A stretch of DNA of 64,000 bases from Pseudomonadota bacterium (GTDB taxonomy: Bacteria; Pseudomonadota; Alphaproteobacteria; Sphingomonadales; Sphingomonadaceae), in the NCBI GenBank assembly GCA_029779535.1, contig JAKPAG010000112.1:1-64000 (forward strand). Reading direction: 5' to 3'. A model generated the notes under the pieces. It was given only the letters and a program-made list of their open reading frames with translations. It searched no databases and had not been told where the DNA came from. The translations under genes were made by a program, and so were the position numbers. Below are positions 19,011-23,744 of the stretch, piece after piece (the first letter of the stretch is position 1; the number at the start of each line of letters is the position of its first letter).

Positions 19011-19651
19011 TGCCGGCAATCTCCACGCAGGTTGGGGCAGGCAAGGTAAGGGGTGATTCCCGCCAGGCAAGAGCTACCACCGGTGGTGTATGCCTGGCCT
19101 GCCCCACCCCAAGCCGTTGCGCTTTCGGGGGTGATTTGCGCAACAAGATTGCCGGCTCCGATTCTAACCTTGTCAACGCCCCGGAACGCCTTTCCCCGGC
19201 CAAAAATTTTTTCACAGATTCACTTTGACTCTTGCGCGGATGACGAAGCGCCGGATTTCCACGCGTCGCTGCGACGCGGCATCGGCCGGGCAGCGCTTCG
19301 GGGCTGCCGGGCATGGTTATCCGAAGATTTACCCTCTTGCGCCGGACTCGGGTTCGGGCACTATGGATAGTGGTCCAGCATACGGGGGGACCTCTAGAGC
19401 TAGTTGGACGCTGATCGCGCGGTTCGCGCCGCGGTGGCGGATTCGGCCGGGATGCAAGCCCCCCGAAGTGACTGACCGGGGGATGGAATGGGGATAAGTT
19501 TTTCTCCTTTCGTTCCCCCCGTTTGCTAGGATGGGCGCTTGCCCGCCGATTCGAACGGAAGTGGAACATTTGGCGCCACGCGCCGACTTGCGGAACGCTG
19601 CGAAATATTGGGGGCTGACAGGTGGATTTCAGGAACGGAGACGAGCCGACG
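19011..19651 (+). promoter_or_regulatory. 641-bp nrdA upstream region with many inverted repeats
   Basis: No credible gene lies here. Inverted repeats are GTTGCGC/GCGCAAC (19116-19144), CGCGTCG/CGACGCG with a 3-nt loop (19262-19278), GGCAGC/GCTGCC (19289-19308), CACTAT-GG-ATAGTG (19359-19372) and GCGCG/CGCGC (19417-19429). ACGGGGGGA at 19382 can pair over 9 bp with TCCCCCCGT at 19514, or over 7 bp with CCCCCCG at 19459, which can itself pair with GGGGG at 19478. A T-run (GTTTTT) follows at 19498. A TTGAC-type promoter element sits near 19225. This looks like a folded 5' leader of nrdA or a separate small RNA. Confidence 0.5.
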
Positions 19652-21520
19652 ATGGCCGAGCTGGATATTGCGGCAAGTGATGCGGCGGCGGGTGATGCGG
19701 CTGGAAAGGGCCCGGCATTGAGCATGAGTGACAAGACGGATGCGGGCTCTGCGGGCCTGGTCGAGAAGCTGGGCGCGGATGCCCTGGCCGGCGCGCTGGG
19801 CGAAGTGGCCAAGGCGGCCGCCACGCCCAAGGCGGATTCCAAGGCGATCGCCGACCGGCGCTTCACCATCGTCACCGATCCGTCGCGCGATGCGCTGCTG
19901 ACCGATTTTGGCAAGGAAACGCTGGACGACCGCTACCTGCTGCCCGGCGAAAAGTACCAGGACCTGTTCGCCCGCGTGGCCGATGCCTATGCCGATGACC
20001 AGGACCACGCCCAGCGGCTGTATGACTACATTTCGAAGCTGTGGTTCATGCCGGCCACCCCGGTGCTGTCGAACGGCGGCACCAATCGCGGCCTGCCGAT
20101 CAGCTGCTACCTCAACTCGGTTGACGATAGCCTCGAAGGGATCGTCAACACCTGGAACGAGAACGTCTGGCTGGCTTCGCGCGGCGGCGGGATCGGCACC
20201 TATTGGGGCAACGTGCGCGGGATTGGCGAACCGGTTGGCCTGAACGGCAAGACCAGCGGGATCATCCCCTTCGTCCGCGTGATGGACAGCCTGACCCTGG
20301 CGATTTCGCAAGGGTCGCTGCGGCGCGGTTCGGCGGCTTGCTATCTCGACGTGTCGCACCCGGAAATCGAGGAGTTCCTCGAAATCCGGAAACCCTCGGG
20401 CGACTTCAACCGCAAGGCGCTCAACCTGCACCACGGCGTGCTGCTGACCGATGAATTCATGGAAGCGGTGCGCGACGGCGCCGATTTCAACCTGCGCAGC
20501 CCCAAGGACGGGTCGGTGCGCGGCACGGTCAACGCCCGCGCGCTGTTCCAGAAGCTGGTCGAAAACCGGCTGGCCACGGGCGAGCCCTACATTGTCTTCT
20601 CCGACACGGTGAACCGGATGATGCCCAAGCATCACCGCGACCTCGGGCTCAAGGTCTCGACCTCGAACCTCTGCTCGGAAATCACCCTGCCCACGGGCCG
20701 CGACCACCTGGGCAACGATCGCACCGCGGTGTGCTGCCTGTCCTCGCTCAACCTCGAAACCTGGGACGAGTGGAACAAGGACAAGCTGTTCGTCGAAGAC
20801 GTGCTGCGCTTCCTCGACAACGTCCTGCAGGACTATATCGACCGCGCGCCGGACGAGATGGCCCGCGCCAAGTATTCCGCCGCGCGCGAACGCTCGGTCG
20901 GGATGGGCGTGATGGGCTTCCACTCCTACCTGCAGCAAAAGGGCATCGCCTTTGAAAGCGCGATGGCCAAGGCGATCAACCTCAAGATGTTCAAGCACGT
21001 CGCCGCCAAGGCGGACGAGGCGTCGATCCTGCTCGCGCAGGAACGCGGCGCTTGCCCCGATGCGGCGGACATGGGCGTGATGCAGCGCTTCAGCTGCAAG
21101 ATGGCGATCGCGCCGACCGCGTCGATCAGCATCATCTGCGGCGGCACCAGCGCCTGCATCGAACCGATCCCGGCCAACATCTACACCCACAAGACCCTGT
21201 CGGGCAGCTTCGTGGTCAAGAACCCCTACCTGCAGAAGCTGTTGGCGGAAAAGAGCAAGGATTCGACCAACGTCTGGAACTCGATCCTCGAGCACGGCGG
21301 TTCGGTCCAGCACCTCGATTTCCTGTCCCCTGAGGAAAAGGCGGTCTACAAGACCAGCTTCGAAATCGACCAGCGCTGGCTGCTTGAATTCGCGGCTGAC
21401 CGCACGCCCTATATCGACCAGGCCCAGTCGCTGAACCTCTACATCCCGGCGGACGTGGAGAAGTGGGACCTGATGATGCTGCACTTCCAGGCCTGGGAAA
21501 AGGGCATCAAGAGCCTCTAG
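19652..21520 (+). CDS. nrdA: Ribonucleotide reductase class Ia alpha subunit, ended early by in-frame TAG
   Basis: Catalytic subunit of the aerobic reductase that makes dNTP precursors. Present are the substrate-site segments (TPVLSNGG, SCYLNSVDD), the active-site loop NLCSEITLP with its cysteine and glutamate, and PTASISIICG. The frame stops at TAG (21518-21520) after KGIKSL; the same frame then continues YLRSKSVQ... to EECLACQ. In the family this place reads LYYLRS, so TAG replaces the first of the two radical-relay tyrosines (E. coli Y730) and removes the C-terminal Cys pair. I chose the ATG at 19652; an in-frame GTG lies at 19622. As written the product should be inactive, so a sequencing error or fresh mutation is likely. 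Confidence 0.9.
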   Translation: MAELDIAASDAAAGDAAGKGPALSMSDKTDAGSAGLVEKLGADALAGALGEVAKAAATPKADSKAIADRRFTIVTDPSRDALLTDFGKETLDDRYLLPGEKYQDLFARVADAYADDQDHAQRLYDYISKLWFMPATPVLSNGGTNRGLPISCYLNSVDDSLEGIVNTWNENVWLASRGGGIGTYWGNVRGIGEPVGLNGKTSGIIPFVRVMDSLTLAISQGSLRRGSAACYLDVSHPEIEEFLEIRKPSGDFNRKALNLHHGVLLTDEFMEAVRDGADFNLRSPKDGSVRGTVNARALFQKLVENRLATGEPYIVFSDTVNRMMPKHHRDLGLKVSTSNLCSEITLPTGRDHLGNDRTAVCCLSSLNLETWDEWNKDKLFVEDVLRFLDNVLQDYIDRAPDEMARAKYSAARERSVGMGVMGFHSYLQQKGIAFESAMAKAINLKMFKHVAAKADEASILLAQERGACPDAADMGVMQRFSCKMAIAPTASISIICGGTSACIEPIPANIYTHKTLSGSFVVKNPYLQKLLAEKSKDSTNVWNSILEHGGSVQHLDFLSPEEKAVYKTSFEIDQRWLLEFAADRTPYIDQAQSLNLYIPADVEKWDLMMLHFQAWEKGIKSL

Positions 21521-22591: not shown

Positions 22592-22685
22592 GCGCTACGC
22601 GCGCCAACCCATCCCGTGTTTCCCGCGCCATCATGGCGCGGGAAGCCGCCCTTTAGATCAACGCTGTCCGCCAGGAGTCCGTCCG

Positions 22686-23744
22686 ATGCCCCTTCTCGAA
22701 GCCCGCAAGACCTACAAGCCCTTCGAATATCCCTGGGCCTACGACTTCTGGAAGCGCCAGCAGCAGGTCCACTGGATGCCCGAGGAAGTTCCCCTGGGCG
22801 AGGACTGCCGCGACTGGATGCAGAAGATCAGCGAAAGCGAACGCAACCTGCTGACGCAGATCTTCCGCTTCTTCACCCAGGCCGACGTGGAAGTGCAGGA
22901 CTGCTACCACGAAAAGTACGGCCGCGTGTTCAAGCCGACCGAAGTGAAGATGATGCTGGCCGCATTCTCCAACATGGAGACGATCCACATCGCGGCCTAC
23001 AGCCATCTGCTCGACACCATCGGTATGCCCGAAACCGAATACTCGATGTTCCTCGAGTATGACGAAATGCGTGCCAAGCACGATTACCTGCAGCAGTTCG
23101 GCGTCGACAATGACGAGGACATCGCCCGCACGCTCGCCATGTTCGGCGGCTTTACCGAAGGGCTGCAGCTGTTCGCCAGCTTCGCCATGCTGATGAACTT
23201 CCCGCGCTTCAACAAGATGAAGGGCATGGGCCAGATCGTCACCTGGTCGATCCGCGACGAATCGCTGCACTGCGAAGGGATCACCCGCCTGTTCCACGCC
23301 TTCGTGGCCGAACGCGGCTGCCTGACCAAGGCGGTCAAGGAAGACATCATCGACTGCTGCCAGAAGACCGTGCGGCTGGAAGACGCCTTCATCGACCTGG
23401 CGTTCGAACAGGGCCCGGTGCCCGGCATGAGCGCGAAGGAAATCAAGCGCTACATCCGCTACATTGCCGACTGGCGCTTGTCGCAGCTGGGCCTGCCCGC
23501 GATCTACATGATCGAGGACCACCCGCTGCCCTGGCTCGCCCCGCTGCTCAACGGGGTGGAACACGCCAACTTCTTCGAAACCCGCGCCACCGAATATTCG
23601 AAGGGCGCGACCAAGGGCAGCTGGCAGGACGTCTGGTCCAGCTTCGACAGCCGCCGCAAGGCCAAGGGCGAACCGGCCAACGAAGCCGGCAACGCGGGGC
23701 AAGAGCCGGACATGTTCGGCGCGGCCGGAGTGGCGGCGGAGTAA
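22686..23744 (+). CDS. nrdB: Ribonucleotide reductase class Ia beta subunit
   Basis: Diiron-tyrosyl-radical subunit that generates and stores the radical used by NrdA; 352 aa. Metal ligands appear in order: Asp/Glu in FTQADVEVQD, the ExxH in FSNMETIHIAAYSHLLDTIG with the radical tyrosine a few residues later, and the second ExxH in IRDESLHCEG. The C terminus (EPDMFGAAGVAAE) is the acidic tail expected to dock onto alpha. GGAG precedes the start. Two small membrane-protein genes separate it from nrdA. Confidence 0.96.
   Translation: MPLLEARKTYKPFEYPWAYDFWKRQQQVHWMPEEVPLGEDCRDWMQKISESERNLLTQIFRFFTQADVEVQDCYHEKYGRVFKPTEVKMMLAAFSNMETIHIAAYSHLLDTIGMPETEYSMFLEYDEMRAKHDYLQQFGVDNDEDIARTLAMFGGFTEGLQLFASFAMLMNFPRFNKMKGMGQIVTWSIRDESLHCEGITRLFHAFVAERGCLTKAVKEDIIDCCQKTVRLEDAFIDLAFEQGPVPGMSAKEIKRYIRYIADWRLSQLGLPAIYMIEDHPLPWLAPLLNGVEHANFFETRATEYSKGATKGSWQDVWSSFDSRRKAKGEPANEAGNAGQEPDMFGAAGVAAE

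Follow-up and report, generated by a model that had tools for sequence, protein, structure and literature searches.

The analysed window, a stretch of 64,000 nucleotides, contains nrdA (19622-21520, plus strand), which encodes the large subunit of a class Ia ribonucleotide reductase (RNR), and, downstream of it, nrdB (22686-23744). The gene nrdA begins with a GTG codon at 19622, which is conserved among the relatives (context GTGGATTTCAG), and is preceded by an intergenic stretch of ~550 bp, bounded on the other side by a minus-strand ORF ending at 19070. Ribonucleotide reductase supplies the building blocks of DNA; of two known repressors, NrdR senses nucleotide supply and LexA senses DNA damage; nrdR, lexA, recA and gcrA are all present in the source genome. 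The nrdA upstream regions compared come from 109 genus, 13 family and 27 order genomes, and the genus-level relatives belong to a single GTDB genus whose closest named records are mostly Novosphingobium. Removal of the Novosphingobium-titled records gave a set of 50 loci, which belong mostly to other sphingomonad genera and include some MAGs that may fall within the Novosphingobium genus.

Two putative NrdR boxes lie in the intergenic stretch. Box 1 (19358-19373, unstranded) contains the palindrome CACTATGGATAGTG at 19359-19372, which agrees with the NrdR box consensus; the box was found in 97 of the 109 genus regions, against 0.1 in shuffles, and is the sole CACTATNNNTNGTG match in the whole genome. 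Since the palindrome is kept as a sequence in the relatives, where it is invariant (CACTATnnnTnGTG), it behaves as a DNA operator would. The sequence-only reading of this DNA had listed CACTATGGATAGTG as a small hairpin: the letters are there, but they correspond to box 1 of the operator. Box 2 (19391-19406, unstranded) has the core CTAGAGCTAG at 19394-19403, which reads CTAGACCTAG in relatives; among them it stands 32-34 bp downstream of box 1. In the source genome the two boxes are 33 bp apart, centre to centre, with a 17-bp spacer, and box pairs with 31-34 bp spacing occur in 94 of the 109 Novosphingobium nrdA upstream regions (0.05 from shuffles). NrdR proteins accept spacers of 14-17 bp (PMC12051234), and the 17 bp found here fall within the ~14-17 bp of the helix-phased pair of boxes required at an NrdR-controlled promoter. 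The nrdR gene of this genome (TIGR00244, above cut-off) is in keeping with membership of the NrdR regulon.

A CC-N-CTTG block, ~95-100% conserved in 101 Novosphingobium loci, sits at a fixed distance from box 1, 20-26 bp upstream of it. This conservation makes plausible a promoter, P1 (19336-19364, plus strand), with its -10 element inside NrdR box 1: -35 CTTGCG at 19336-19341, a 17-nt spacer and -10 CACTAT at 19359-19364, with transcription predicted to start at ~19371. As in the NrdR regulon of Escherichia coli (nrdAB and nrdHIEF) and the RNR operons of Listeria and Streptococcus (PMC12051234, PMC12176259), there are two 16-bp palindromic boxes one spacer apart, which overlap and adjoin the downstream side of the promoter of an RNR gene, and nrdR is present. 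Unlike in those systems, the core of box 2 is CTAGAGCTAG and not the AT-rich consensus, and the boxes are followed by a LexA box as well as a long leader with hairpins. Another strongly conserved block, TTCACAGATTCACTTTGACTCTTGCG ... CACGCGTCGC, lies at 19205-19275, 80-150 bp upstream of P1; its CGCGTCGC is found in 98 of 101 genus loci. The block shows no arm covariation and might be a further promoter, a site for a protein or a control region of the divergent gene. In one group of relatives (L012, L016, L024, L025) a DnaA-box-like sequence, TTGTCCACAATT, recurs upstream of the nrdA P1.

Downstream of the NrdR boxes, a perfect LexA box of the alphaproteobacterial type, GAACGGAAGTGGAAC (GAACN7GAAC), is located at 19553-19567 (unstranded). 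Perfect boxes occur in 53 of 109 regions of the genus, 10 of 13 of the family and 11 of 27 of the order (shuffles give 2.1, 0.35 and 0.35), and in 44 of the 50 loci left once the Novosphingobium-titled records are set aside; 56 of the 109 genus regions show none. Boxes of the same type are found at lexA (two) and recA (one) of this genome. The nrdA locus therefore shows both marks of the alphaproteobacterial LexA regulon, a conserved GTTCN7GTTC at the promoter and a LexA that uses the same box type. A degenerate LexA-like box, TTTCTCCTTTCGTTC, lies at 19501-19515 (plus strand) beside the GTTTTT run, and this site is a perfect GTTCN7GTTC in several relatives, such as L012, L016 and L024. The motif TGNTA precedes the LexA box, in most cases by 28-30 bp (31 of 44 and 26 of 34 loci; background 4%), and this near-fixed distance predicts a second promoter, P2, with the extended -10 element TGCTAGGAT at 19524-19532 (plus strand), no convincing -35 element and a start at ~19539. 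As in the LexA/SOS regulon of alphaproteobacteria (GTTCN7GTTC; PMC12700426, Caulobacter), a perfect direct-repeat box stands at a promoter; unlike in that regulon, the box here comes after the predicted start, at a gene that NrdR is predicted to control as well. Neither the Caulobacter LexA paper (PMC12700426) nor a Dinoroseobacter paper mentions nrdA, and no description of LexA control of nrdA in sphingomonads was found in the literature searched, whose coverage was incomplete.

The LexA box is adjoined by a GANTC (CcrM-type) site at 19548-19552 (unstranded), in the context CGATTCG. In the alignment of the relatives (A1) the GA and the TC are invariant and the middle base is variable, and a GANTC is located at the LexA box or beside it in 40 of 44 and 31 of 34 loci, against a background of ~20%. 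The locus thus has the features expected of a GcrA/CcrM promoter, since the GANTC of the promoter is conserved and the genome carries gcrA. The extended motif of such promoters is YGAKTCG/K (PMC7987155); CGATTCG fits it, whereas GACTC and GAATC, which some clades have, do not conform to YGAKTC.

The sequence-only reading had likened the region 19330-19540 to a riboswitch or attenuator, in which helices between G-tracts and C-tracts exclude each other. All of its elements are present where it placed them: ACGGGGGGA (19382-19390), which can form 9 bp with TCCCCCCGT (19514-19522), CCCCCCG (19459-19465), GGGGG (19478-19482) and GTTTTT (at 19499). Folded on its own, this sequence gains little over shuffled DNA (z -1.61, with 10 of 200 shuffles doing equally well), and the pairing probabilities predicted for the mRNA leader are ~0.65 for 19382/19459, ~0.01 for 19382/19514 and ~0 for 19459/19478. 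Among 27 close relatives, 68.2% of cells are paired at the 19382/19514 helix (shuffles: 64.4%) and 64.6% at the 19382/19459 helix (shuffles: 59.9%); neither shows a gain in pairs changed on both sides, and RNAalifold on the alignment of these 27 relatives finds little structure. The mutually exclusive helices are thus not kept: they pair at near-shuffle levels and are not compensated. Absence of compensatory changes, which that reading had named as grounds for dropping its proposal, applies to the G/C helices and does not extend to the whole leader. Nor does the T-run follow a terminator stem, because GTTTTT lies inside a conserved hairpin (H-A, below). An attenuator with an intrinsic terminator was rejected: a single weak pattern match was found where 0.8 are expected, and the T-run is within H-A. 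An Rfam scan at gathering and loose thresholds gave no relevant match (the best, a chance match, has an E of 0.22, far below the gathering score), which agrees with the earlier failure to recognise a known class. The region resembles the cobalamin-class riboswitch leaders of RNR genes in that a structured leader precedes an RNR gene, and differs from them in that no Rfam class of any kind matches and a conserved unpaired core, as ligand-binding riboswitches have, was not found in the leader of the relatives. A G/C-tract switch is therefore very unlikely, even though this one sequence can form all three pairings and one of them reaches a substantial predicted probability, since conservation in the relatives stands against it.

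The leader does appear structured, at other pairings. When pairs were counted in fixed columns of alignment A2, covariation was not significant, which we think is due to stem registers that shift among species. As counts of this kind presumably miss shifting registers, an arm-swap test was used, which compares the folding energy of the true 5' and 3' arms with that of chimeras carrying 3' arms from other species, each chimera being refolded; covariance models R1 and R2 were also built and were set aside, because realignment to a model leans toward its own structure. Applied to ~100 relatives, the test reveals co-varying arms (z -5 to -8) in four to five short hairpins, all downstream of the NrdR promoter; these values are to be read as ranks, because the sequences are related and z and p overstate their independence. 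Hairpin H-C (GCGCG-GTT-CGCGC, 19417-19429, plus strand) corresponds in relatives to the core of a stem that is longer and irregular. It had been picked out from the sequence as a small hairpin, and the relatives do keep a hairpin there with compensating changes (z -8.1, at position +30 from box 2; G.U 67 vs A.C 39); its pairing probability in the source genome alone is only ~0.15. Hairpin H-A (19478-19518, plus strand) consists of an inner stem, GGGGA-TAAGTTTT-TCTCC (19490-19507), and an extension of 19478-19488 with 19508-19518. Its inner arms give z -6.4 at the LexA-like half-site and -4.2 to -6.5 across several redundancy cut-offs, and the signal persists among very different sequences (z -4.2, n=21; z -2.9, n=10); the covariation extends outward (outer 3' arm swap, z -7.4), and the inner stem has a pairing probability of 0.98-0.99. 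Hairpin H-B (GGGC-GCTT-GCCC, 19533-19544, plus strand) gives z -7.5 at position -9 from the GANTC site. Directly after the LexA box lies H-D (GGCGC-CAC-GCGCC, 19572-19584, plus strand), with z -5.4 at GANTC +31 and a pairing probability of ~0.95; when the test was confined to 44 loci from records not titled Novosphingobium, the hairpin after the LexA box reached z -7.0, with one further peak of -3.4. Hairpin H-E (19590-19601, plus strand; z -7.4 at position -30 from the start codon) is weak in the source genome and may overlap H-D in some relatives. No arm-swap peak below -3 is seen in the 300 bp preceding NrdR box 1 or at the coding start of nrdA. Loop lengths and stem sequences of these hairpins vary freely among relatives, and G.U exceeds A.C in the leader stems (221:116) and not in control stretches (150:144), which points to selection on the sense-strand RNA. 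Judged by comparison among relatives, the nrdA leader is a conserved structured RNA absent from Rfam, although not through the G/C pairings first named.

The nrdB leader, used as a control with ~28 sequences, shows two weaker arm-swap peaks (z -3.7 and -3.4), so nrdA may not be the only gene with such hairpins. They could be real but generic RNA structures that regulate no particular gene, many sphingomonad leaders keeping hairpins free of sequence constraint, for instance as protection from RNase E or Rho. We give this somewhat less than an even chance: the nrdB peaks and the lack of loop conservation favour it, whereas the nrdA leader has four to five peaks, H-C alone still gives z -4.7 to -7.2 at 28 sequences, and nrdB is the sole comparison leader. 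Such an explanation bears on the hairpins alone and does not conflict with the NrdR and LexA operators. In the source genome a hairpin, TTCCCGCGCC-ATCAT-GGCGCGGGAA, is located before nrdB at 22620-22644, at the position of a weaker covariation peak in relatives.

It is quite unlikely that the inverted repeats matter as DNA only, through operator symmetry or template-switch mutation that matches the arms, with no role in RNA. H-A does overlap LexA-like half-sites, and template switching can make matching arms without selection; the free variation of loop lengths and stem sequences, the preference for G.U over A.C in the leader stems and the flat profile of the adjoining 300 bp of intergenic DNA all argue against it. 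As to the operators, the LexA boxes might be chance matches, with NrdR alone controlling nrdA. The genome does contain 102 copies of GTTCN7GTTC, compared with 63 of a reversed control pattern, but the box is conserved across genera at a comparable position and is linked to a -10 element, which makes coincidence highly improbable.

The control region of nrdA is thus probably an NrdR-repressed promoter with a hairpin-rich leader, followed by a LexA-controlled promoter that would skip most of that leader. The operators, the conserved -10 element and the covarying hairpins on which this builds all emerge from sequence comparison. Judging from the operator sequences, NrdR would bind both boxes when dATP is abundant and shut P1. 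The RNA from P1 would carry a leader of ~250 nt with H-C, H-A, H-B and H-D/H-E. LexA on 19553-19567, just downstream of the P2 start, would block P2; upon DNA damage P2 would be released, giving an RNA that would lack H-C and H-A. A transcription start downstream of 19520, which the sequence-only reading had held would count against its leader, may hold in part, as the start predicted for P2 from the conserved -10 element lies beyond that position. We infer that the hairpins most likely act on elongation or on the stability or processing of the mRNA, and H-A may be long enough for processing by RNase III. The GANTC beside the LexA box may add a cell-cycle (CcrM/GcrA) input. That the hairpin array of the P1 transcript is an undescribed cis-regulatory RNA, and that the internal LexA-controlled start lets damaged cells escape an RNA brake, is a tentative and rather doubtful extension; if true, a single nrdA leader would combine nucleotide sensing with DNA damage and with control at the RNA level. 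Each operator type is already known; the literature searched describes neither their combination at nrdA across Sphingomonadaceae nor the unlisted leader RNA. Joint control by NrdR and LexA operators, conserved across Sphingomonadaceae, offers a testable case of raising dNTP supply during DNA damage, and the conserved, unlisted hairpin leader poses a second question, at the RNA level.

Two minor observations concern GANTC sites. Six of them lie within the ~390 bp of 19160-19548, and the whole 64-kb window holds 66; in the genus regions their density averages 6.8 per kb, against 4.1 in shuffles. In a group of Erythrobacter and Porphyrobacter (L206, L217, L218, L224, L227, L235 and L237), several loci have a GANTC inside the LexA box (GAACAGAATCAGAAC), and the leader is rearranged around the box with this internal GANTC.
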